The translations under genes were made by a program, and so were the position numbers. The notes under the pieces were generated by a model. The model had not been told where the DNA came from, made no database searches, and saw nothing but the letters and a program-made list of their open reading frames with translations. Shown in pieces: positions 25,946 through 38,753 of a stretch of 64,000 nt of DNA (positions are counted from its first letter, which is position 1; each line of letters starts with the position of its first letter). Origin of the DNA: Alkalimonas sp. Lineage in GTDB: Bacteria; Pseudomonadota; Gammaproteobacteria; Enterobacterales; Alteromonadaceae. Location of the stretch: the NCBI RefSeq assembly GCF_020831925.1, contig NZ_JAFIFQ010000011.1, positions 1 through 64,000 on the forward strand. Direction: 5' to 3'.

Positions 25946-27010
25946 ATGGCGTCGCACAACCCGCATCGCGTTTACATTCCAACCAATGCCCATTCCAACC
26001 AGTATCTGTTGGCCGAAATCAAACTGGATGATGGCTTTTACAGCCACTATGCCAGCAGCGAAGATTGCTATCAGGGGCTGGCACAGCAGCTGTTTAACCT
26101 GGCCGATGCGCTGGAGCTGCGCAATGTGCACTTGATTGCCAACGATAAGCTGCCGGTAGTGCGCTTTCATACCGAGTCCTACACTTTTCAAACCGAGAAG
26201 CAAATTCTGTTTTTCTACAATCCTAGATACCATGAAGGCCAGAATCTGTTTGTCACTCCAGGCTATCAGGCGCGGAAAATCCGTTTGCTGTTTCTGGCCA
26301 CCGGTGAAGAACTGCGTAGCCAGGCCGCCAGCTTCCATGGCAAAGTGGTGCAATTGCTTAAGCAGTTAAAAAGCCAATTGGCCGAGCCCTGTGCCATGAA
26401 ACTGCGCGACCATCAGCATTTATCCTACGATCTTTTTGCTAAAACCAAAGGCCATAAAGAAAGTTACGGTTACAAACTGCGTGGTCTGTACCCGCGCTAT
26501 CAGGCCAGGCAATGCGAGCTGCCAGCCGAGCACAGTGAAATTACCTACGTGACTGTGACGCTGCCGCTCAGCCGAGCGCTGAAACAGCAGTTGCTGCATG
26601 AACGAAGTGAAGACTTCAGCCCACTGTACCAAAGCCTGCAGGATAAATTCCAGCAAGCCTGTGCTGGTAAGAAGCTGGACCGGTTGGCGATGGTCGCCAA
26701 TGGCCTGACCCCTCTGGTGCGTAACAGCAAATGGGACCAGCACGATAAAAACCGCGAGCTGCAGAAAATCAGCTTCAACCCTGACTGCAGTGAGCCGCAG
26801 TACCTGACCTTCTGGCAGGCTGATAATTTGGTAGAAAGCGCGCATTTTGTGCTGGTAGCCAGCAAGGAAGACAATACCGAAATGGGCTATGGCCGCTTTA
26901 TGAACCAGGTAGAAGATGCGCTACGTAGCTTCGCCAAAAGCATTGGCTTTGATGGCAACCATCAGAACCTGACAGTGCGGTTTTTCCAGCATATCAGTTA
27001 CGTGCTGTAA
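25946..27010 (+). CDS. DUF3083-like protein of unknown function
   Basis: 354-residue soluble protein with no signal peptide. The start VYIPTNAHSNQYLLAEIKL and the general layout recall the DUF3083 family, known from Shewanella, Vibrio and relatives, whose function is not established. I match it from memory of that family, not from a search. No catalytic motif stands out. Ribosome site AAGGAG lies 8 nt before ATG 25946. A strong intrinsic terminator follows, so it is a single-gene unit. Confidence 0.55.
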   Translation: MASHNPHRVYIPTNAHSNQYLLAEIKLDDGFYSHYASSEDCYQGLAQQLFNLADALELRNVHLIANDKLPVVRFHTESYTFQTEKQILFFYNPRYHEGQNLFVTPGYQARKIRLLFLATGEELRSQAASFHGKVVQLLKQLKSQLAEPCAMKLRDHQHLSYDLFAKTKGHKESYGYKLRGLYPRYQARQCELPAEHSEITYVTVTLPLSRALKQQLLHERSEDFSPLYQSLQDKFQQACAGKKLDRLAMVANGLTPLVRNSKWDQHDKNRELQKISFNPDCSEPQYLTFWQADNLVESAHFVLVASKEDNTEMGYGRFMNQVEDALRSFAKSIGFDGNHQNLTVRFFQHISYVL

Positions 27011-27033
27011 GCTGTGCTAGCATGAAGATTCAG

Positions 27034-27060
27034 GGTGCGGCAGACTGTCGCACCTTTTTT
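27034..27060 (+). terminator. Intrinsic terminator after the DUF3083-like gene
   Basis: GGTGCG and CGCACC pair around a 9-nt loop and are followed by TTTTTT, beginning 24 nt after the stop codon. Confidence 0.9.
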
Positions 27061-27099: not shown

Positions 27100-27335
27100 A
27101 TGCAAAGCTATACCATTTTGACCGCTCCAGTCGAACATCGCATCAGTGAGAAAAACAGCGACTTTCTGACCTTTTTGCAGCCGGTGCAAAACCGTGATGA
27201 AGCTATGCATTGGGTAGAGCAGTACCGCAACCGTTACCGCGATGCCATCCATGTCTGCTGGGCCTTTGTGATTGGCCATACCCGCCAACCAGAGGCACAA
27301 GCCTTTAGCGATGATGGCGAACCGAGCGGCACCGC
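27100..27335 (+). repeat. Direct repeat, left copy (yigZ 5' segment)
   Basis: 236-bp segment matching 28605-28840 in the same orientation with no indels; similarity stops abruptly after AGCGGCACCGC. A weaker match (TTTTTTC-G-TAT...ACTCA) continues into the leader of both copies. Confidence 0.85.
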
Positions 27336-27345
27336 AGAGTTGTAA
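27100..27345 (+). pseudogene. Truncated, diverged copy of the yigZ 5' region
   Basis: 81 codons that align without gaps to the first 79 codons of the intact yigZ at 28605, then run into a stop after GTAEL. By hand I count about 38 mismatches in 236 bases. Most are synonymous in the second half, where the protein is almost identical (QPVQNRDEAMHWVEQYRNRY); the first 16 codons differ more. The IMPACT-domain N-terminal half is incomplete and the C-terminal domain is missing. It is a remnant of a second allele rather than a working gene, although the frame is still open. Confidence 0.85.
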
Positions 27346-27413
27346 CCAGTCATTTGGCGGCCAGCAATCAATTGGTGAAGGCTGTGTTATTATCCCTTAA
27401 TATCTCATAGTTC

Positions 27414-27444
27414 ACTATCAGGCACGACGTGCCTGATAGTTTTT
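27414..27444 (+). terminator. Perfect 12-bp stem-loop with T-run ahead of the HExxH lipoprotein
   Basis: ACTATCAGGCAC and GTGCCTGATAGT form a perfect stem with a 3-nt loop followed by TTTTT. It lies 68 nt after the yigZ-fragment stop and only 11 nt before the next ATG. So it either terminates transcription entering from the left or sits in the leader as an attenuator. Confidence 0.85.
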
Positions 27445-27455
27445 AGAGCGAGCCA

Positions 27456-28523
27456 ATGACCACCATAAAGAAAACGCTGCTGTTAAGCCTGATAATGCTC
27501 ACAACCGGTTGTAGCAGTGCCTCGCAACTTGAAAACTGGCTGGCACAGAAACATTCTAATAGGGTGTATCAGAACAATCCGGGTACCATTTCGGCTGCTA
27601 TCGTTATGCGTGAAAGTAACCATTCACCGTATAGCAAAAACGGTTATAACCTGTGGCTAAGAACACTAGCCCATTACCGAGCACAGCCAAATGCGCTGAC
27701 CGGCAGACAATTAACAGCATTGGATTATCTTCCGCTAACAAGCATTCAAACGGACAGCATGCAGTTAACTTTCAGTTACGACAGTCGGTTAAACTGCCCG
27801 GAAGCAGATATCAATTCATGGCAGGAATTTCTTGCAAGCTCTTTTCCTGAACTTTTGTTTCAACAGTTCCAGTTGCCTTATGATGTCAGGGTACGCTTTG
27901 TCTCCAAACAATCGTTTCATTTTATGCATCGGATTGATCCAGTTGTCGCACAACTAAACTTTTACTTTCCGGCCGATTGCCAGGACATCCAGCAAGAAGA
28001 ATGGCGCGCTAGGCAGCTCGCCACCATCATCCATGAAATCACGCATATCGAACAGTTTTGGATTTTTGACAGATACAGCAGGCTCGTCCAGTTTCCCGAG
28101 GTCATTACGAAGTCGCCCCCAGACCCATACCGCCTCTTAGATGAGTACATTGCACATAAAATGGATATTTGTGCGATGCTTATCAGCGTGACGGATAGCT
28201 CCATTCCAGACAAGCCGATAATGCGATTTATTGTTAATCTGCCTACAGATTTCTCAGAAGACTATACACTACAAAATTTAGGGGTACGGGAAGTACTTAG
28301 CACTGATTACGATACTGCAAACTTTTCTGAAGGCGGTGGGCTTTACTCCACTCTCGGAGAGTTGCTGGCGAATGACTGGCTGGCAAAGTACGCCGATGAT
28401 GAGGGCTTTATCTTCCACAGTAGCACGATGGATGATAATTTTATCGGCGCTTGCCAAAGCATTTTAAGCGCGGAGGCTATCATTGAAGCTGGCCAGGAAA
28501 TTAAGCAATTACTGACAAAGTAA
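27456..28523 (+). CDS. Lipoprotein with a zincin-like HExxH motif
   Basis: 355 residues. The lipobox LTTGC (Cys19) marks a lipoprotein. HEITH at residues 193-197, inside IIHEITHIEQFW, has the zincin form, and E230 in LLDEYIAHK could be the third zinc ligand. I do not recognise a named peptidase family. Base composition is visibly richer in A/T than the neighbours. It lies between the two yigZ copies with a stem-loop just upstream, which suggests arrival by horizontal transfer or recombination. A metallopeptidase role is inferred from the motif only. Confidence 0.65.
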   Translation: MTTIKKTLLLSLIMLTTGCSSASQLENWLAQKHSNRVYQNNPGTISAAIVMRESNHSPYSKNGYNLWLRTLAHYRAQPNALTGRQLTALDYLPLTSIQTDSMQLTFSYDSRLNCPEADINSWQEFLASSFPELLFQQFQLPYDVRVRFVSKQSFHFMHRIDPVVAQLNFYFPADCQDIQQEEWRARQLATIIHEITHIEQFWIFDRYSRLVQFPEVITKSPPDPYRLLDEYIAHKMDICAMLISVTDSSIPDKPIMRFIVNLPTDFSEDYTLQNLGVREVLSTDYDTANFSEGGGLYSTLGELLANDWLAKYADDEGFIFHSSTMDDNFIGACQSILSAEAIIEAGQEIKQLLTK

Positions 28524-28604
28524 CCACCGCTCAAACAAGTTCGGCACGATACGCTCTGTTTTTTCCGCTATGATACTCAGCCAACTATCCTAAATGCATT
28601 ATCT

Positions 28605-28840
28605 ATGAGTCACTTTACCATTCTTGCCGCCCCGCTTGAGCACCAGCTGTCGGAAAAAAACAGCGACTTCCTGACCTTTCTGCAGCCGGTGCAAAACCGC
28701 GACGAAGCCATGCATTGGGTAGAACAGTACCGCAACCGTTACCGCTATGCCAGTCATGTCTGCTGGGCCTTTGTGATTGGCAATACCCGCCAACCAGAGG
28801 CACAAGCCTTTAGCGATGATGGTGAGCCCAGCGGCACCGC
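28605..28840 (+). repeat. Direct repeat, right copy (inside intact yigZ)
   Basis: Counterpart of 27100-27335; about 84 percent identical by hand alignment, same orientation, no indels, and part of a continuous yigZ frame. Confidence 0.85.
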
Positions 28841-29216
28841 CGGCCGACCGATGCTGCATGTGCTGACGGAACGAGAACTTGGCAACAGCCTGGCGGTGGT
28901 GGTGCGTTATTTTGGTGGTGTCAAACTCGGTGCCGGTGGCCTGGTGCGAGCCTATTCTGCTGCCGTATCGCAAGCGGCTAGTCTGGCTGAACTGAGTACA
29001 ATAAGCCCGCAGACAGAGCTAAGCATTCAACTCGGTTTTGCCGATGAAAGCAAAGTACGGCAACTGCTTTGTGAGCATCAGGGCGAGCTATTAAACAGCG
29101 ATTACAGCCACCTGGTCACTCTAACCATCCGGCTGCCACAAAACGCTGAAGCAGTATTTTGCCAGCAACTGAGCAATCTAACTGCAGGCAGCGCCGTAAT
29201 TGACGGTCACGACTGA
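28605..29216 (+). CDS. yigZ: IMPACT/YigZ family protein (intact copy)
   Basis: 203 residues, the full family length. The N-terminal IMPACT domain has FSDDGEPSGTAGRPML and VVRYFGGVKLGAGGLVRAYS; the C-terminal half is the ferredoxin-like domain of the YigZ type. The cellular role is not settled; relatives bind nucleotides or act near translation control. Here it is the right-hand copy of a partial duplication, and the region between the copies carries a lipoprotein gene. No close operon partner; the condensin-like operon begins 103 nt downstream. Confidence 0.9.
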   Translation: MSHFTILAAPLEHQLSEKNSDFLTFLQPVQNRDEAMHWVEQYRNRYRYASHVCWAFVIGNTRQPEAQAFSDDGEPSGTAGRPMLHVLTERELGNSLAVVVRYFGGVKLGAGGLVRAYSAAVSQAASLAELSTISPQTELSIQLGFADESKVRQLLCEHQGELLNSDYSHLVTLTIRLPQNAEAVFCQQLSNLTAGSAVIDGHD

Positions 29217-29319
29217 TTTCCTCTTTGGCATTTGCTGCCAATCTGTGGATAATAACCGCCATAACACGACACAAAAATGACACCATGGCAGCAACAGCGT
29301 GCTGCCGACAGGATGCGCT

Positions 29320-32300
29320 ATGTCTCAATTACTTCGTATTGTGCTGATCCACACCCACCTGCCTGGTGTGGTGGAATTGCAGCTGGACCAGCACACCAAT
29401 ATTTGTGGCACCAATGCTTCGGGCAAAACCACCCTGCAGCGGCTGGTGCCGGTGTTTTACGGCGAGCAGCCGAACCGGGTGGTGCCCAAAACACGCAAAA
29501 AGTTTGATGAATTTTACCTGCCCTACTCCAACAGCTATCTGGTGTACGAGTACCGGCGTGAAAATGATGAGATCTGCCAGGTGGTGCTGACCAAGAAAAG
29601 CGATGGCGGTGTCGAGTACCGTTTTGTCGGCGCGCCTTACCAGAGCGATTTCTACCTGCAGCAAAGTGACGAAGGGGTCAAGGCGCTGAGCTACAGCGAC
29701 TGGGCCAGCGCCATGCGGGCCCGGCCCGATGTGCAGGTGTCGGCCAAAATCAGTGCCACTAGCGAGTACCGCAGTATTATTCAGAACGATGCTGCTGCGC
29801 TGCGCGGCAACAATGCCGACAGCGTCAAGTTGCGCCGGCTGGCAGCCAGTTTCAGCCTGGTGGCCAGTGGCCATAAGCTGCGCCATATTGAAAAGCTGGT
29901 CAGCGCCGTTCATGCCAAAGAAGGCAAAATGGACACCTTAAAAGCCATGCTGGCGGCCATTTTTGAAGAAGATGGTGTGACCCTGCCGACCACCAAGGTA
30001 AAAAACACCAAGGCGCGGGACTGGATCCAGCAAATGCGCCAATCGATGCGGCTGGACCGGCTGCAGCAGGATTTCGAGCGGCTGCAGCAACTAGCACTGC
30101 AACTGGATGGTGCCGAAGCCCAGCTGGCGGCTTTGCTGCCCCTGCTCGAACAGGATGAGCAGCAATTAAAGCAACAGCGCGCCGATGCCGAGCAGCAGGT
30201 GCAGAGCCTGCGCCAGCAACTGCAAAGTGCCAAAGAGCTGTATCAGCAGCAACAGCTGGAACACAACAGCCAGCTGGCCAAAGTCGAAGCCGATCTGCAT
30301 GAAACCTCGGCCCGGCTGGATCGCCTGCAGCAGCAGTTTGATGACTTTGACAGCAAAGACATGCCGAAGCTGCAGCGCGATACCGATGCGCTGCCGCTGT
30401 GGCGTGAAACCCTGCAAGAGCTGGCCGAACAGTACCAGTTGATGGTGGAGCAGCACGGCGATATGGAGCGTCAGCTGGAGCAGCGTAAAGCCAAACTGGC
30501 CGAATCCTTTAACCGCTTAAGCGAGCAGCACAGAGCCAAAGCCAAGCAGCTGCAGCAGCAAAAAGATCAGACCCGCGAGCAGCAGGACAACAAACTGGCC
30601 ACACTGGAACAGGCCTTTCAAAGCCGCTTGCACGAGCAACAACAAACCTTCGCCACTCAGCTAAGCGACTGCCACAGTGCCATCGCCGTGCTGCAAAGCC
30701 AGCTCAGCGCCTCGCCGCTGACCGAAGCCGAGCACGACGAGCTGCGCGCCGCCGAACTGCGGCTGGAACAAGCTCAGCAGCAGGCCCAGCAGCAGGCCCG
30801 CCAGCTGCAGCAGTTGCAAAAGCAGCATCAGCAAGCGCAGCAACAACGTGAGCAGGCCGATCAGCAGCTCGAGTCCAGCCGTAAAGCCCAGCACAGCGCC
30901 GAGCAGCAGCTGCACAGCCTTGAGCGCCAGTTAAGCCCAGAGCAAGGCAGTTTGCGCCATTTCCTGCGGCTTCATTACAACGGCTGGGAGCAAAAGCTGG
31001 GCAAGGTGCTGGACGAGCGGCTGCTGGAGCGGCACGATCTTCAGCCGCATCTGCTGGATCTGACCGACAGCCTCTATGGCCTGCAGCTGGATTTAGCAGC
31101 CATCGACACGCCGGATTACGCCCAGGACGAAGCCGCCATTCGTCACCGCCTGCACAGTGCCGGGCAACAGCTGGAGCAAGCCAACACCAACAAAGCCGCC
31201 GCCGAGAAGGCATTAAAAGACAAGTACGAGCAGGCCGAACTGGCCCGGGCCCAGCTGGAGCAGGCCGAATGGCAACTGACCCAGTACGAGCAAAACATCG
31301 ACTACGCCCGCGATGCCCGCAACCGCTTAGACGCTCAGCAGCGCGAGCTGGTGAAACAACGTCAGGCCTCTGTGCGCTCGGAGCTTGGCGCCCGTCAGCA
31401 GCAACTGGAAAAACTGCAGCATCAGCAGCAACAGGACTTGAATGGCCTGAAAGACGACCATAACAGCCAGAAAATGGAACTGAAAGCCGACTGGCAGGCC
31501 GAGCTGCAAGTGTTCGACGAGCAAATGGATGAGCTGGAGCGCCAGCTGGAGCGTAAGCGCGAAGACAACAAAAGCCAGCTGCGCGAGCTGCAGCTGGCCT
31601 TTGCCGAAGAACTGTCGGCCAAAGGCATCGATCCACGCCGTCTGGCGGAGCTGCGGCAAAAGCAGGACCAGCTCAAAGCCGATATTCAGGCCGTCACCGG
31701 GCGTCAGAATGAACTAAGCGCCTGGCAAAGCTTTATGCAACTGGACTGGCAGCAACTGCGCCCGCAACTGCTGGAGCAGGAAACCACGCTGAAACAGCAA
31801 CAGCGCAGCAGCCGTCAGGCGCTGGAGCAATTAAAAGCCGATTACAGCCAGCAGCAAAAGCAGCTGGATGCACAAAAGCAGCAGCATCAGGAGCAGATGC
31901 AACACGCCGAGCAGCGGCTGGCGCAATTAAAGCCGTGTTTAAGCAAGCTGGCCGAGCTGCACCTGAGCACCGTGAAGCCAGCCAGTCTGGCGGCCTGCGC
32001 CGATGTGATCGAGCGACTGTCCCGCACCAACGAAGCCCTGGAGCAGCGCAGCAAGCTCGATAGCGCACTGAAGCAGGCGATGGAGCAGTTTGAAAGCATG
32101 CTGAGTAAAGATGCCGGTCCTGAGTTTCTCGATCGGCTGGAGCATGAAAAACGCAAACTGCCCGACTACGCCGGCAAGCGCGAGCAGTTGCCCATCCTGT
32201 CCGATTTGCTGCGCATTTTAAAAGATGCCCAGCAACAGCTGCTGGAAATGGGCGAGAACATTGGCGGCGATCTGAAAAAGTTTTTCACCGTCTTTAGCGA

Positions 32301-32985
32301 CATCAACCGCCGTATTGCCCTGCAAAGCCGCCGCTTAAGCGAAGCCGTAGCCGACGATTTGGTGCTGGAAGGCATCAGCCGCTCGGAAGTACGCATTCTA
32401 TCCACCATCGACGAGCTGGGTTTCTGGCAGCCGCTGAAGCACTTCGCCAAGCTGTACGATGACTGGGGAGCTTCCGGCAAAGCCCTGCCCTCAGAGCAGT
32501 ACTTAAACGCCCTGGCCGATGTGGTCGAGCTGCTGCGCGCCGACGAGCAATACAGCATCGAATCGCTGCTGCGGCTGGAGCTGCATTTAAGCGAAGGCGG
32601 CTCCGAGCTGGTGATTAAAAACGACCGCCAGCTGCTGGAGTCGTCCAGCCATGGCATGGCGTACCTTATTCTGTGCAAATACCTACTGGCCTTTACCCGC
32701 TTGCTACGCGGCGATGCCAAGGTCAGCATTCATTGGCCGATTGATGAAATCGGCACCCTGGCGTACCACAACGTGGAAAAACTGTTCCAGGCTTGCAGCA
32801 GCAACAACATCGTGATTGTTGGCGCCTTCCCGAACCCGGAATCCGATGTGCTGATGCTGTTCCAGCACCGCTATCTGATTGAGCCAAGCCAGCAGGATCC
32901 GAGCAAACGTCAGCTTAAACGCATTCAACCCAAAGTCAGCCGCCTTGCTGAGCGACTGGCGCAGAAACAGCAGGAGGCCAGCTGA
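29320..32985 (+). CDS. mksB: SMC-like ATPase of an MksBEFG/Wadjet-type complex
   Basis: 1221 residues from ATG 29320 (ACAGGA ribosome site); the ORF-track start 21 bases earlier has no such site. Walker A GTNASGKTT is at 30-38. Long Gln/Glu/Leu coiled coils follow, with a globular hinge near 545-615 (HYNGWEQKLGKVLDERLL). The C-terminal head has a signature-like SSHGMAYLI near 1108 and Walker B PIDEIG near 1140. This N-head, coil, hinge, coil, C-head plan is that of MukB/MksB/JetC. First gene of a four-gene operon with one-base overlaps. It probably loops or extrudes DNA with its partners. The sequence is clearly diverged from textbook MukB, so exact family assignment needs a profile search. 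Confidence 0.78.
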   Translation: MSQLLRIVLIHTHLPGVVELQLDQHTNICGTNASGKTTLQRLVPVFYGEQPNRVVPKTRKKFDEFYLPYSNSYLVYEYRRENDEICQVVLTKKSDGGVEYRFVGAPYQSDFYLQQSDEGVKALSYSDWASAMRARPDVQVSAKISATSEYRSIIQNDAAALRGNNADSVKLRRLAASFSLVASGHKLRHIEKLVSAVHAKEGKMDTLKAMLAAIFEEDGVTLPTTKVKNTKARDWIQQMRQSMRLDRLQQDFERLQQLALQLDGAEAQLAALLPLLEQDEQQLKQQRADAEQQVQSLRQQLQSAKELYQQQQLEHNSQLAKVEADLHETSARLDRLQQQFDDFDSKDMPKLQRDTDALPLWRETLQELAEQYQLMVEQHGDMERQLEQRKAKLAESFNRLSEQHRAKAKQLQQQKDQTREQQDNKLATLEQAFQSRLHEQQQTFATQLSDCHSAIAVLQSQLSASPLTEAEHDELRAAELRLEQAQQQAQQQARQLQQLQKQHQQAQQQREQADQQLESSRKAQHSAEQQLHSLERQLSPEQGSLRHFLRLHYNGWEQKLGKVLDERLLERHDLQPHLLDLTDSLYGLQLDLAAIDTPDYAQDEAAIRHRLHSAGQQLEQANTNKAAAEKALKDKYEQAELARAQLEQAEWQLTQYEQNIDYARDARNRLDAQQRELVKQRQASVRSELGARQQQLEKLQHQQQQDLNGLKDDHNSQKMELKADWQAELQVFDEQMDELERQLERKREDNKSQLRELQLAFAEELSAKGIDPRRLAELRQKQDQLKADIQAVTGRQNELSAWQSFMQLDWQQLRPQLLEQETTLKQQQRSSRQALEQLKADYSQQQKQLDAQKQQHQEQMQHAEQRLAQLKPCLSKLAELHLSTVKPASLAACADVIERLSRTNEALEQRSKLDSALKQAMEQFESMLSKDAGPEFLDRLEHEKRKLPDYAGKREQLPILSDLLRILKDAQQQLLEMGENIGGDLKKFFTVFSDINRRIALQSRRLSEAVADDLVLEGISRSEVRILSTIDELGFWQPLKHFAKLYDDWGASGKALPSEQYLNALADVVELLRADEQYSIESLLRLELHLSEGGSELVIKNDRQLLESSSHGMAYLILCKYLLAFTRLLRGDAKVSIHWPIDEIGTLAYHNVEKLFQACSSNNIVIVGAFPNPESDVLMLFQHRYLIEPSQQDPSKRQLKRIQPKVSRLAERLAQKQQEAS

Positions 32986-33605
32986 TGCTGCAACACGGCC
33001 CTTTACTGGAACGGCTGCTGGCCGGTGACTTTATCTGTCAAATCAGCGACGAAGATGCCTTTCGCCACCTCGGCAATGAGCAAACCCAGCAGGACATCAA
33101 CCACTACCTGCGGCCACTGAACCGCCGGTTGGTTAGCAACGACGATGGCTCGGTGTTTTACCTGGGTTACCATGAGCTGACCAAAGAAGCCCGCGAGCAT
33201 TTAAGCAGCCAGTTTGCGCTCACCGTGCAATCCTTGCTGCCGCTGTTGGAGTGGCTGCAACTGGTGCAGGAAACCCTGGGCCGCGACAGCGCCCTGACCG
33301 CCGGTGATACCATCAAGCTGCAGGAGTTTGTGCTGCGCACCGAAGACAACCAAAGCCTGCGCCAGCGTCTGAACGCCCTTGCCAGCGACCGCTTTTTTAA
33401 CAGCCAGAGCGAGCAGCTGGACAGCCAGGTCAAACTGATTTTCCGCCGCTTAAAAGAGCACGGCTATCTGTTGCAACCGCACAGCGAACGCCAGTACTAC
33501 ATTGTCACCGGCAAAATTGACCATCTGCTGGATGTGATCCGCTTTATCCGCGATGAAGAGCAGCTGCCGGTGGACGATACCCCCAGCCAGGAGGCGCTGC
33601 TCTGA
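32985..33605 (+). CDS. mksE: MukE/MksE-like accessory subunit (JetB position)
   Basis: 206 residues; the start overlaps the upstream stop as TGATG. Predicted largely helical, with an N-terminal block (LLERLLAGDFICQISDEDAFRHL), a winged-helix-like centre and a basic end (SQVKLIFRRLKEHGYLLQPHSERQYYIVTGKID) of the kind seen in MukE/JetB wing domains. Identification rests on size, fold impression and its place between an SMC ATPase and a kleisin-like gene. It lacks the recognisable LLKGVLYR-type start of common JetB proteins, so it belongs to a divergent branch. Confidence 0.62.
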   Translation: MLQHGPLLERLLAGDFICQISDEDAFRHLGNEQTQQDINHYLRPLNRRLVSNDDGSVFYLGYHELTKEAREHLSSQFALTVQSLLPLLEWLQLVQETLGRDSALTAGDTIKLQEFVLRTEDNQSLRQRLNALASDRFFNSQSEQLDSQVKLIFRRLKEHGYLLQPHSERQYYIVTGKIDHLLDVIRFIRDEEQLPVDDTPSQEALL

Positions 33606-34846
33606 TGGCCCCGCTCGACTCACAGCTGACGTCCAATTTATTCAGCATCGGTGCCGAGCGTCTGGCCTTGCTTGGCAAGCACCACAAAGCCCTGATGCAG
33701 GGCTATCTGGATGGTCAGGTCGATGAAACGGCCTTTAGCGAAGGGGCGCTGAAAAAACTGATCGCCGCCCGGATTTTATGGCGACCAGACGAGCAACAGC
33801 CTTTGGCACTGCGGCCTTTGGTCAGTGAACTGATTGCCAGTATGGTGGCCGATGAAAACCGCCGCCAAATCAACGCCGATGTCGCCGAAAAGCTGGAACA
33901 AATCCGCAACCGGGTGCAGGCCTACCGCGATGCGCAGTACAAAGGCGATTACAGCGTGGCCGAGCTGCAGCTGCAGCGCCTGACCGAGCATGTGCACGAC
34001 TTAAGCGGCCAGTTTGAAGAGGCCATTGACAGCCTCTGGCACCGGCTGAACAGCGACTTTGGTTTTGTCAGTAGCCTGGATGATAAAATCCGCGAAAACG
34101 AACGGGCACAAAAGCAACTACGCCGTTTGCTGGATGGCCTGGATTTGCTCGATTTCAACGAACTGATTGAGCTGTCCGAAGGCAATAACCACCTGCGTAA
34201 ACTGCTGGTTAGTCAGCTGCAAAACCAGCTGAGCTCGCACCACAGCAGCTTGCTGGAAGTGCAAAAACGGCTGGTGCAGCTGCTGGCCAAGTTCCGTCAG
34301 CAGCAGGCCCGCTCGATGCTGATTGCCAATATGGCGGCCTTTTTGCGCCAGCATCCAAAATACCAGCCGGCCGATTACCCCAACCGCTCCGAGCTACCGT
34401 CGTTGTTCAATCAGGCGGCGGCCATCCGGCCACAAGCCGCCATCGCCCTGGATAAAGCCAGCGAGCGGGCGGTACTGGCCGAACTGGTGCGTGCCCTGCC
34501 ACGGCCAGGCAGCATCGAACTGCCCGAGCAGCACAGCGCCAGCTTTGCTGAGCTACTGGCCGATGAAGAAATCACCGCCCGCCAGCAGGCGCTGAAAACC
34601 GATGTGGAAAACTTCTACCTGAGGGTGATCGATCAGGGCGGCAAACTGAGTGCGCTGGATTATTTGGCCCAACAGCAACTGAGTTGGGACAGCGAGATCT
34701 GGCTGTATCAGATCCTGGCTGAATACCAGGCGCTGCCGTTGGAGGAAAAGCAGATGTTTGCCATTCGCCGCGAAGAAGCCCCGGCCAGCTCGGTTAACCA
34801 GCTGCTGCTGATCCGCGATATTCAGCTGACCCTGCGGGCGGCATAA
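33605..34846 (+). CDS. mksF: MukF/MksF-like kleisin subunit (JetA position)
   Basis: 413 residues, starting in a TGATG overlap with mksE. The N-terminal part looks like a winged helix (ALLGKHHKALMQGYLDG... LKKLIAARILWRP). A long helical middle follows (about 110-270, with EEAIDSLWHRLNSDFGF and a basic LRRLLDGLDLLDF segment), then a C-terminal winged-helix-like part ending in a helix. This is the layout of a kleisin that bridges the two SMC heads. Assignment is from architecture and operon position rather than clear sequence signatures. Confidence 0.6.
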   Translation: MAPLDSQLTSNLFSIGAERLALLGKHHKALMQGYLDGQVDETAFSEGALKKLIAARILWRPDEQQPLALRPLVSELIASMVADENRRQINADVAEKLEQIRNRVQAYRDAQYKGDYSVAELQLQRLTEHVHDLSGQFEEAIDSLWHRLNSDFGFVSSLDDKIRENERAQKQLRRLLDGLDLLDFNELIELSEGNNHLRKLLVSQLQNQLSSHHSSLLEVQKRLVQLLAKFRQQQARSMLIANMAAFLRQHPKYQPADYPNRSELPSLFNQAAAIRPQAAIALDKASERAVLAELVRALPRPGSIELPEQHSASFAELLADEEITARQQALKTDVENFYLRVIDQGGKLSALDYLAQQQLSWDSEIWLYQILAEYQALPLEEKQMFAIRREEAPASSVNQLLLIRDIQLTLRAA

Positions 34847-35712
34847 TGCTGCCGGTATTAAGCCCGGCAGCCTGCCGCTTTTTGCGTCAACTATCGCCTA
34901 AGGTGCTTGCCGCAGGCCGGCTGAAAAAATCAACCCGGCAAAAGTCTGTGCAGGAAGTCCTTTGCTGGTGTCTGGCGCATCAGCTGGAGCAGGTGCCCGG
35001 CAACTGTCTGCAGCGGCCGGATTTTTACTTCGAGCCAGCCCTGCTACAGCAAATTGCTGCGGTGCAACAGGCATTGGGGCACCCCGATTATCGGCTGGAT
35101 TTCTCGAACCAGAGCCGGCCGGATGCGGCCTTGCAAAGCCAGATTGAGCAAAAAAGTATTGGCATCAAACCACGGCAAGCAAGGATCTTACTGCGACTGC
35201 CTCAGCCCCAAAGGCTGGCTGGTATTGCCGTACAAGAACTTGATCTGGACTGGCAGCAGCTGTCGTTGCCCGACTATGAAGCCCTGCTGGTGGTGGAAAA
35301 CCTGGATTGCTTTTATCAGCTGGAGCGCTTTGCGATCGAGCTGCCTTACCAGCACATCCTGATCGTCTATCGCGGTGACCGCCACTACAGCAGCGGCTGC
35401 AAAGCACTTAAAGCCGCCTGGTTAAGTTTGCAAAAACCAACCATCTATTTTGGCGACTTTGATGGCAAAGGTGTCAGCATCGCCTTGCACGAAGGCTATC
35501 AGGCCATGCTGTTGCCAGCTTTTGCCGAGCTGCAACAACAGGTCAGTGCAGCCATGCTGCCCGATAAACAGCTAAAATTCCTGCCCGCGACCGAACAACA
35601 CCCGACCAGCCCAGCTTTTCAACCTTACCAACAATTGCTTTGCCAGCAACTCAAGGGACTGCGGCAGCAACAGATGCAGGGGATGGCGCTAGCGCCTGTC
35701 TTGTTGAGCTAA
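34846..35712 (+). CDS. mksG: Toprim-type nuclease subunit (MksG/JetD-like)
   Basis: 288 residues, starting in a TAATG overlap with mksF. The C-terminal half is a Toprim fold: Glu151 in LLVVENLDCF and the DxD pair D204/D206 in YFGDFDGKG, the metal-binding set of topoisomerase VI-type and JetD nucleases. JetD cuts plasmid DNA in Wadjet systems. The N-terminal region is short, with basic patches (LKKSTRQKSVQEV). Its presence as last gene of the operon argues for plasmid defence over a purely structural condensin. Confidence 0.68.
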   Translation: MLPVLSPAACRFLRQLSPKVLAAGRLKKSTRQKSVQEVLCWCLAHQLEQVPGNCLQRPDFYFEPALLQQIAAVQQALGHPDYRLDFSNQSRPDAALQSQIEQKSIGIKPRQARILLRLPQPQRLAGIAVQELDLDWQQLSLPDYEALLVVENLDCFYQLERFAIELPYQHILIVYRGDRHYSSGCKALKAAWLSLQKPTIYFGDFDGKGVSIALHEGYQAMLLPAFAELQQQVSAAMLPDKQLKFLPATEQHPTSPAFQPYQQLLCQQLKGLRQQQMQGMALAPVLLS

Positions 35713-35829: not shown

Positions 35830-36792
35830 TCATTTCTGACACAGCGAAAGCCATAGCTCCCTCCAGTGAGAGTTCAGGCCTAAATCATCCAACACCAAAG
35901 CCCCATTGTTCGTTTCGGGGAAGTCCTCTAAAAGCTCCATTAGCCGTTTCCCCCAACTGGAGTTCGGACATATGACTGCCATCATTTTTTGCATGATACA
36001 AAAGTACATGAATGGCTTGGCATTATCTAAACCAAGCCATTCCTGAGGCAATGGAGAACGCTCCAGCACATTGATATTCCATAGTCGACTGTGATGGGCT
36101 GCTACATTTCGAATGAAGTTAAGACTGCGCAACCACCTCGCCAAAACATCTCCACTGGCTAAGCCATACTTATTGGCGATTTGATTTTTATCGTGGTACT
36201 TCATGCCGGCAAACAACCGGGATAGTAAGCCAAAATCCCAAACTTCGATAGCAACCCAAATCGGTAAATGCCCTTGATACTTTGCACTATGATGCTCGAT
36301 AAAAGGCTCCTTCCTGGCACGCCAAACCATGGTTTCGAATTTTTCAAGCCACAGTTGGTGATCTGTCTTTCCTTGATGGGGCCCTCTACGATTGGCTCTT
36401 TTGGCGAAGTTTCCATGCAGACACTCAGGATTTTGGTGCGCACAAGGGTCCTTTGCACCCAACAAATAGGCCACATCTACACGGATCGCCATTTCAATCC
36501 GCTCCAACGCATCAAGCGCTAATAGCCTTAGCCTCTTATCAAACACATAAAGTTGAACCACATCTTCAAAGTGACTGTCTGGCACAAAGTTATCGGAACG
36601 AACTGGACGGCGTTGCGTTGCAGTATGAGCATGGTCGATGGCACGAAGTGGATACCAGTAACCGCTGAGTCGGTAATAGCCAATTCTGGAAAGATAGTTT
36701 AATGCAGCAGCCTCGTGGTCTACTTTCAGACCGCGTTGCTGCAGAATGTTCAGTTGCTCTTCCATTGAGCGCCAAGGTTTTAATTCAGGCAT
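35830..36792 (-). CDS. Abi_2 (AbiD/AbiF-type) abortive-infection protein with HEPN motif
   Basis: 320 residues. The family start (QLNILQQRGLKVDHEAAALNYLSRIGYYRLSGYWYPLR) and middle (LYVFDKRLRLLALDALERIEMAIR) match Abi_2 proteins. The RNase-type HEPN motif RNVAAHHSRLWN (R-x4-H) lies near residue 240. Members cause abortive phage infection in lactococci and are thought to cut RNA. The GC content is low compared with the genes outside the islet. It lies 86 nt downstream of the nuclease-like gene on the same strand, so they could be one transcript. The usual toxin partner is not obvious. Confidence 0.85.
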   Translation of the reverse strand: MPELKPWRSMEEQLNILQQRGLKVDHEAAALNYLSRIGYYRLSGYWYPLRAIDHAHTATQRRPVRSDNFVPDSHFEDVVQLYVFDKRLRLLALDALERIEMAIRVDVAYLLGAKDPCAHQNPECLHGNFAKRANRRGPHQGKTDHQLWLEKFETMVWRARKEPFIEHHSAKYQGHLPIWVAIEVWDFGLLSRLFAGMKYHDKNQIANKYGLASGDVLARWLRSLNFIRNVAAHHSRLWNINVLERSPLPQEWLGLDNAKPFMYFCIMQKMMAVICPNSSWGKRLMELLEDFPETNNGALVLDDLGLNSHWRELWLSLCQK

Positions 36793-36878: not shown

Positions 36879-38753
36879 TCAAATACTTTTTGCGATTAAA
36901 TCGGCTTTCAGCAACCCGCCTTTGGTTAGTAAACGAGCGGAGAAATTTGGTTTGCGTTTACTCCGATAGGCATCATAAATTTGCTTTAGCCCATCCGCTG
37001 TGAGTAAAGAGATATTCACCTCGGTATCCATCTCAGCTGACTCAATAAAATCCTGCGAAAAACTTGGAGCAATAATCAGCACCTGTGCGACACGTTTTCC
37101 CTGATTTTCGCATCGTTTAACATAGGCCTTTATCTGCCGTGAAGTGCTGGAGTATTTTGCAAAATCACCATTCTTGCAGGTTTTGGCCTCACCAATAATA
37201 ATATCGTCATCGCTAATGGACAGGATAATATCAGCTTTATCTTTAGCCGTGTTTATCGACTTGCGAAGCTCTTCATCCACATTCAAATCCATCTGCTCCA
37301 GGATAGTTTTGGTGGCCTCCTCAAATTTCAGACCAAGATCTGCCTCGGAGACATCAATACCTGATTCTTTAAGCCCCATCAGATCACGTCGAGCTAAAGC
37401 AGCAAAATTTTCAATCAATTTATCATTTGCGCTGGCGAATACATCAAGCAGATGAAATCTTGGGTTACCCTTTTTGGGAAGATTCATCGTATCCCGCAAC
37501 TCTCTCATTTCATCGTTGCTAATTAAATAAAGCAGGTCATGTGGGGTGATGCTCAAAGCTCGTAACCGCTCGACATTGATTTCTTCAGTATCTTCAAGCT
37601 CAAACTCTCTTTTGAGACGTTGTGAAAGTGACTCTTGGCGGCCATCAGGATCTTTGCCATGGAAGCTCTCCTCCAGCGCATCGAACATTTCTTTATAGCC
37701 TGTTGCGCTCATGGCATTAAATTCACGATCAGTAGCTGTATTCAAACTATCCAGAATGACATCTATCCGCTCATCGACTGTTTGCCCTATTCGCTCAGCT
37801 TCAATATCCAGATCTGTGATCAGCTGCTTCAAGCGCTCTTTGCGTTTATTTTGACTTTCATTTTCGTCATACAGATCCCTTCCTAGCATATCCCTGACAG
37901 AAATACCGGAATGCATGATGGTTGAAATTCTCTCACTGCGGGAAACCCCACGAATTCGCTTACCATAACTTTTAAGAATGTTGGCAAGTTCAGCGTCGGA
38001 TAGCACCCGTAATATCCTTAACAAATGCTTATCCGCCAACTCTTTATGTTGAATTTGGTTAAGTATGGCAACGACTTCGTCAGGAATCAGTACTTCTGAG
38101 CGCTTCCGGTTGATGAAAATCACCCCCATCTCGCGTAAGTCCTGCAAACAATTTTCGACTGTTTCCTTCCCCGCTTTTATCGGATCAGACAGATGCTCAA
38201 TAGCTACGACTTCATCGTGAGAAATTTTCAGGTGCTGGGCGAGGACATTGAGAATACTTCGTTCATCATCAGAGATATTGGCTTGCCTGTTCGTTTTAAG
38301 ATCGTTGGAGTAGGCAATTTTAAGGCAGTCATTAAAAATCTTAAGTCGATGTTCACGACAGTAGTTATCCGCTGTACAGCTGTTTACCTCTTGCTGTATT
38401 TGCCTCGAAAGCGAGTCCAGCACCTCCCATTCCCGACTATATAATTGCTCTAGCCAACTAATTCGGGCTACGCCATTACCATCACGGCTTAGTATATTAA
38501 CCAGCAAAGCCATAGAGGCATCACAGAGTGTCAGCCGTTCTTCAATCGCAGCTTTGTAGTGACTGGAAACTGCCGCAAATAGCTGTGAGATTTCGCTACC
38601 TGATGCATCTTTGATTTGACGGTTGACCTTATTCAAGGTTTTGTCGATAACTGAATCATAAGCCGCAGCATTGCTGCACAACTTGTCCAGACAGGTAATG
38701 AACTTAGATTTTTCAATTTGATTTAGCGCAGACAGAACTTGGTTCAACTTCAT
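36879..38753 (-). CDS. Large protein with C-terminal PD-(D/E)XK-like nuclease core
   Basis: 624 residues; I do not recognise a named family. Helical N-terminal part, then a winged-helix-like stretch near 170-240. Two short SAP-like helix-extended-helix segments (SDAELANILKSYGKR; SNDEMRELRDTMNLPKKGNPRF) may bind DNA. The last 150 residues carry a restriction-nuclease-like core: KADIIL with D508, and IIIGEAKT with E522-x-K524, followed by a helix and VAQVLIIAPSF. All three catalytic positions are present, so an active nuclease is plausible. Next to Abi_2 and the MksBEFG operon it is a good candidate defence effector. That role is inference. Confidence 0.6.
   Translation of the reverse strand: MKLNQVLSALNQIEKSKFITCLDKLCSNAAAYDSVIDKTLNKVNRQIKDASGSEISQLFAAVSSHYKAAIEERLTLCDASMALLVNILSRDGNGVARISWLEQLYSREWEVLDSLSRQIQQEVNSCTADNYCREHRLKIFNDCLKIAYSNDLKTNRQANISDDERSILNVLAQHLKISHDEVVAIEHLSDPIKAGKETVENCLQDLREMGVIFINRKRSEVLIPDEVVAILNQIQHKELADKHLLRILRVLSDAELANILKSYGKRIRGVSRSERISTIMHSGISVRDMLGRDLYDENESQNKRKERLKQLITDLDIEAERIGQTVDERIDVILDSLNTATDREFNAMSATGYKEMFDALEESFHGKDPDGRQESLSQRLKREFELEDTEEINVERLRALSITPHDLLYLISNDEMRELRDTMNLPKKGNPRFHLLDVFASANDKLIENFAALARRDLMGLKESGIDVSEADLGLKFEEATKTILEQMDLNVDEELRKSINTAKDKADIILSISDDDIIIGEAKTCKNGDFAKYSSTSRQIKAYVKRCENQGKRVAQVLIIAPSFSQDFIESAEMDTEVNISLLTADGLKQIYDAYRSKRKPNFSARLLTKGGLLKADLIAKSI

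Follow-up and report, generated by a model that had tools for sequence, protein, structure and literature searches.

Organization of the locus

The DNA analysed here, which we call the window, is a stretch of 64,000 nucleotides from a species of Alkalimonas, an alkaliphilic bacterium, with a 3.6-Mb genome (G000). Between a DUF3083 gene and an intact yigZ gene, it carries a truncated second copy of the yigZ 5' end, the probable tail of a lipoprotein gene (gene A), a stem-loop, and a complete gene for an orphan lipoprotein (gene B). The features are as follows, all on the plus strand.

25946 to 27010, plus: DUF3083 gene (Pfam PF11281, 3.5e-149)
27032 to 27056, plus: intrinsic terminator of the resident DUF3083-yigZ interval; G001 and G004 have it at their empty sites as well
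27100 to 27345, plus: left yigZ fragment (start MQSYTIL), nt 1 to about 236 of yigZ plus three foreign codons including the stop
27337 to 27400, plus: probable remnant of the 3' tail of lipoprotein gene A (ending EGCVIIP and stop), its 5' side cut off
27415 to 27445, plus: stem-loop with T-run (T5), probable gene A terminator, upstream of gene B (RNA fold)
27456 to 28523, plus: gene B, 355-aa lipoprotein with HEITH and a conserved downstream EYIA, putative zinc metallopeptidase of an orphan family
28524 to 28604, plus: spacer between B and yigZ, including the yigZ upstream region linked to the cassette; its homology is to A. collagenimarina, with none to the resident spacer
28605 to 28651, plus: cassette-linked beginning (MSHFTI) of the intact yigZ, as delimited by the max-chi break
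28605 to 29216, plus: intact yigZ, 203 aa, a mosaic of the cassette-linked 5' end and a resident-like body (Pfam PF01205, PF09186)

Of five congeners searched, four yielded the locus: G001 (L036), A. collagenimarina (G002, L002), G004 (L037) and G005 (L035). The fifth, G003, is 71% complete and gave no yigZ match. DUF3083 is the conserved left flank in all five Alkalimonas genomes with the locus, with a protein identity of 93 to 96% in the four congeners. Outside the genus, DUF3083 and mksB were both absent from the 1.5-kb yigZ flanks examined in 25 genomes.

Two of the congeners, G001 and G004, have an empty site, in which DUF3083 is followed by the terminator in a spacer of about 90 bp and by a yigZ gene starting with MQSYTIL. 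Terminator and spacer are clean and shared between the two sites, and there is no scar. In A. collagenimarina the order is DUF3083, a gene A tail of about 55 codons, the same stem-loop, gene B, yigZ with an MSHFTIL start, an inverted B2-A2 pair, and mksB. This locus shares with the window gene B (80% protein identity), the terminator, the yigZ upstream region and start, and the chromosomal slot. It differs in having no left yigZ fragment, in keeping about 55 codons of A instead of about 20, and in the extra complete inverted A-B pair beyond yigZ, whose B2 is 38% identical to B. That pair (L002 7851 to 9591, 38 to 43% GC) lies between yigZ and mksB and is convergent with yigZ. Of these genomes G005 is nearest overall, at about 90% DNA identity in dpp and mksB; it has an unrelated two-gene cargo in the same slot (L035 8932 to 10380, minus strand), encoding a 282-aa putative outer-membrane (OMP beta-barrel) lipoprotein and a 152-aa secreted YciI-like protein, and its yigZ start is divergent.

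Two copies of the yigZ 5' end

The two yigZ copies form a gap-free direct repeat (27100 to 27336 and 28605 to 28841, 1505 nt from start to start) with 37 mismatches in 237 nt. The likeness is far beyond chance, and the left open reading frame on its own matches Pfam UPF0029 at 4.6e-14. The mismatches are distributed unevenly, with 23 in the first 60 nt and 14 in the next 177 (per 20-nt step: 7, 8, 8, 2, 2, 2, 0, 3, 1, 0, 1, 3), and their density drops sharply at about nt 50. We read this abrupt change as the mark of a recombination breakpoint. Between the copies, codons 1 to 17 are near saturation, and codons 18 to 79 show about 11 synonymous and 3 nonsynonymous differences.

An earlier note, made by reading the same letters, had described two direct copies of the yigZ 5' region over 236 bp with no indels and about 38 mismatches counted by hand, the left one truncated, with changes that are largely synonymous toward the 3' half and with an AT-richer HExxH lipoprotein gene and a perfect stem-loop between the copies. 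Our measurements bear this description out, with 237 nt and 37 mismatches in place of 236 and 38. The note had missed the probable gene A tail before the stem-loop and the sudden fall in mismatch density. It had also proposed looking for the same lipoprotein beside an intact yigZ in other genomes, which A. collagenimarina provides, and for empty sites, which G001 and G004 provide.

The intact right copy is a mosaic. A max-chi analysis places a break between nt 47 and 63 of the gene (permutation p = 5e-5), and the first 50 nt or so resemble A. collagenimarina. At the sites that separate G001 (1) from A. collagenimarina (2), the right copy reads 2222222122221211111..., switching within the same interval. 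Topology tests point in the same direction. For nt 1 to 51, a grouping of the left and right copies is rejected (AU p = 0.003) and the right copy with A. collagenimarina is preferred; for nt 52 to 237, this latter grouping is rejected (AU < 1e-4), and the left, right and G001 bodies form a star in the tree, so that either body in the window may be the native one. The upstream spacer of the right copy aligns with that of A. collagenimarina (z = 15) but neither with the left spacer (z = 1.7) nor with the empty sites (z at most 3.7). Together, these comparisons indicate that the start of the right copy came with the cassette and that its body is resident-like. The A. collagenimarina yigZ gene has a break of its own at nt 11 to 21 (p = 3e-4), which joins a start like that of the right copy to a body like that of G004. 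Separate entries of the cassette-linked 5' end into the two lineages would produce such a pattern.

The left copy has the opposite affinity. Its spacer is collinear with the empty sites (upstream alignment z = 30 for G001 and z = 40 for G004), and its first 60 nt are 93% identical to G001. Because the fragment and the terminator and promoter upstream of it match the empty DUF3083-yigZ sites of these two congeners, the left copy appears to be of the resident type. It is an 81-codon open reading frame closed by a TAA stop at 27343 to 27345; at about nt 236, yigZ is fused directly to the unrelated tail of gene A, and a pattern search found this joint sequence only in this genome. Within codons 18 to 79, six of the seven left-specific changes are synonymous and one is nonsynonymous, compared to a neutral nonsynonymous fraction of about 0.73 (P about 0.002). 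By this measure the left copy was under selection, as a working gene, until recently and is not a long-standing decayed duplicate. We also considered a functional 81-aa product of the left open reading frame, as the promoter region and start are kept and there are few nonsynonymous changes, but recent truncation explains these features better.

Gene B and its probable partner A

Gene B has a lipobox-like TTGC motif and a GC content of 45.2%, compared to 52.8% for the window. Three sequences of the family are known here, including the 38% identical paralogue B2, and in all of them residues H193, E194, H197 and E230 are invariant. The family shares the HExxH motif with the zinc metallopeptidases of the MA clan and has a conserved glutamate 37 residues after the first histidine in an ExxA context (H193, H197, E230). 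In ligand spacing and context it is reminiscent of the gluzincin-like peptidases. It differs from MA-clan peptidases in matching none of their profiles or PDB sequences. There was no match for B in Pfam, NCBIfam, PADLOC, or the phage and plasmid sets, and no peptidase among the PDB sequences matched it. An AF2 model built from the three sequences reached a pLDDT of 41, which is too low for a fold search. On these results we do not assign B to any peptidase family. Its motifs make it probable that B is an exported lipoprotein with a His-His-Glu zinc site, by which it would cleave proteins or peptides at the envelope of the cell.

Searches of 395 genomes from the order and 369 from the class, and of viral contigs, plasmids and phages, gave no convincing relative of B beyond Alkalimonas. 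Two weak matches in the order (E 0.005 to 0.008, covering only the first 50 to 90 residues) were discounted, as they probably reflect the signal peptide. The B genes of the window and of A. collagenimarina differ at about 15% of DNA positions, with a dS of 0.44, whereas for DUF3083, mksB, dpp and GGDEF the dS between the same two genomes ranges from 1.27 up to saturation. A dS so far below that of the flanking genes argues that B moved horizontally. The divergence is uneven along the gene (dS 0.15 to 0.5 in the first two thirds and about 1 in the last third), and therefore B itself either recombined or came from an unsampled donor. The actual donor of the cassette was not found in the collections searched.

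The segment before the stem-loop (approximately 27337 to 27400) is probably what is left of the 3' end of another lipoprotein gene, A. Only the last 27 nt or so are near-identical to the A. collagenimarina tail (ending EQGCVIIP and stop) and the remainder has diverged, so that the upstream part of this 64-bp remnant is assigned to A by frame and a few matches only. In A. collagenimarina, the QGCVIIP ending follows about 55 codons of A (L002 5787 to 5951), and a complete A gene lies at L002 8971 to 9591. A search of the order gave no match for A. Gene A breaks off at a different point in each of the two genomes, so the two insertions would have been made, or trimmed, independently on their left side.

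The perfect stem-loop (27415 to 27439) lies in a region that folds with z = -4.5, and with its T-run it is probably the transcription terminator of gene A. Each genome has a single copy of it, which in A. collagenimarina occupies the corresponding position, and Rfam has no match in the region. The paralogous A2-B2 pair has an unrelated, stronger hairpin with a T-run in the same position (z = -6.7), and therefore A-terminator-B is probably the ancestral layout of the module. With this layout, less B than A would normally be produced.

Origin of the arrangement

We consider it probable (about 0.7) that the cassette came from another Alkalimonas lineage into a DUF3083-yigZ locus of the resident type, by a crossover within yigZ on the right and an illegitimate joint on the left. 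The cassette would consist of the 3' tail of gene A, the terminator, gene B, and an alternative yigZ upstream region and start. On the right side, the significant break shows that the join falls within conserved yigZ, between nt 47 and 63 of the gene. On the left side, we infer that a donor segment with its left end in gene A was attached to the resident yigZ at about nt 236, with no usable homology. In this way the promoter of the resident gene, and with it the first third of yigZ, would have been left behind upstream and nt 50 to 236 or thereabouts duplicated; the left fragment would then be a dying remnant without function. The empty sites of G001 and G004 represent the resident state. One homologous arm combined with one illegitimate joint would be the footprint of homology-facilitated illegitimate recombination. 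Alternatively, the same footprint would result if a circle with yigZ nt 1 to 236 had recombined by one crossover. B and lipoprotein A were probably produced together at one time, and the terminator between them would have set a lower level of B.

Homology-facilitated illegitimate recombination is known from transformation and conjugation (PMC3240628), and it has been proposed for displaced immunity genes of V. cholerae T6SS clusters and modules (PMC5361080). Our locus has in common with them a homologous exchange in a conserved gene at one end, a probable nonhomologous joint at the other, and a resident piece displaced beside the module. The present case differs from them in that a household gene, yigZ, acts as the anchor and has itself left the truncated copy that forms the remnant, in that an orphan lipoprotein makes up the cargo, and in that the joint is deduced from sequence.

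The earlier note had proposed, as one of two readings, import of the cassette with a foreign yigZ fragment by homologous recombination and had taken the truncated left copy, supposedly once a working gene in another lineage, as the foreign part. The import together with foreign yigZ sequence is borne out by the mosaic right copy and the low dS of B, and the left copy did work until recently, but the polarity has to be reversed: the 5' end and promoter of the left copy are of the resident type, and it is the right start that resembles A. collagenimarina.

A different history, which we regard as unlikely, is that a donor already had the whole arrangement of left fragment, A tail, B and yigZ, and that ordinary homologous recombination within DUF3083 and within yigZ or mksB transferred it, the joint having been formed elsewhere. 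Some tracts of the window do lean to G001 over the sister genome G005 (parts of DUF3083 nt 500 to 800 and the first 200 nt or so around the mksB start, up to 99%), so that imported tracts may extend on both sides. These signals are patchy, the distances in the yigZ body are equal for the left copy, the right copy and G001, and no such donor arrangement was seen in the other genomes of the genus that were searched. It is also improbable that Alkalimonas had the cassette from the outset and passed it on by vertical descent, with losses in G001, G004 and G005. The order DUF3083-B-yigZ is common to two distant congeners, as this would predict, but the dS of B is about a third or less of that of the flanking genes in the same genome pair, the empty sites are clean, and gene A is cut at different points.

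The possibility that yigZ was duplicated in tandem in this lineage, with the cassette placed between the copies and the left copy decaying afterward, was the alternative of the earlier note, and we consider it very improbable. The tree of nt 52 to 237, taken alone, allows the two copies to be sisters without favoring it (AU 0.28). A tandem duplication should make them closest relatives along the whole repeat, and this is largely refuted by the 5' segment, where their grouping is rejected and the upstream regions are unrelated. The fall in mismatches after the first 60 nt and the nearly complete restriction of left-copy changes to synonymous sites, despite a dS of 0.37, also argue against it. 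A discrete mobile element (an integron-type cassette or a transposon) with the yigZ repeat as its target-site duplication can practically be dismissed: the cargo at this site does differ between species, but the stem-loop occurs only once per genome, neither a recurrent terminal sequence nor an integrase or transposase was found (Pfam scan of the neighbouring proteins, 23.5 to 34.8 kb), and the repeat is not a target-site duplication because it is imperfect (84%) and 237 nt long.

Under entry through yigZ, the locus would be a compact and readable record of how a foreign gene comes in with a household gene serving as the homology arm, in which one can see the piece of yigZ left behind, the break within the right copy and the empty site of two congeners. 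In kind it would be ordinary horizontal exchange between species of one genus, with unusually legible breakpoints. It also brings to light a lipoprotein family, B, that had not been described, together with its partner A; the terminator that separates the two exists in two unrelated versions. Tentatively, and with less than even confidence, the DUF3083-yigZ interval may be a cargo slot of Alkalimonas where envelope-protein modules are swapped together with their own yigZ promoter and first codons. yigZ would then be a recurrent homology arm and the A-terminator-B pair a new exported peptidase module.

Downstream neighbourhood

Directly downstream of yigZ (29320 to 35712) lies a condensin operon resembling MksB-MksE-MksF (DUF3584, 1221 aa; MksE, 206 aa; and a protein of 413 aa). 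The region around the mksB start (29304 to 29504) is 95 to 99% identical to G001 and 89 to 90% identical to the sister genome G005, and this difference suggests a separate recombination tract. After the operon comes a protein of 288 aa, possibly MksG/JetD, in which a toprim-like stretch (IYFGDFDGKG) was recognized by eye; PADLOC matches to Jet proteins are weak. Beside the operon, on the minus strand, are genes for an Abi_2/AbiD-like protein (35830 to 36792, by eye) and a 624-aa protein of unknown type (36879 to 38753), which possibly form a small defence cluster.
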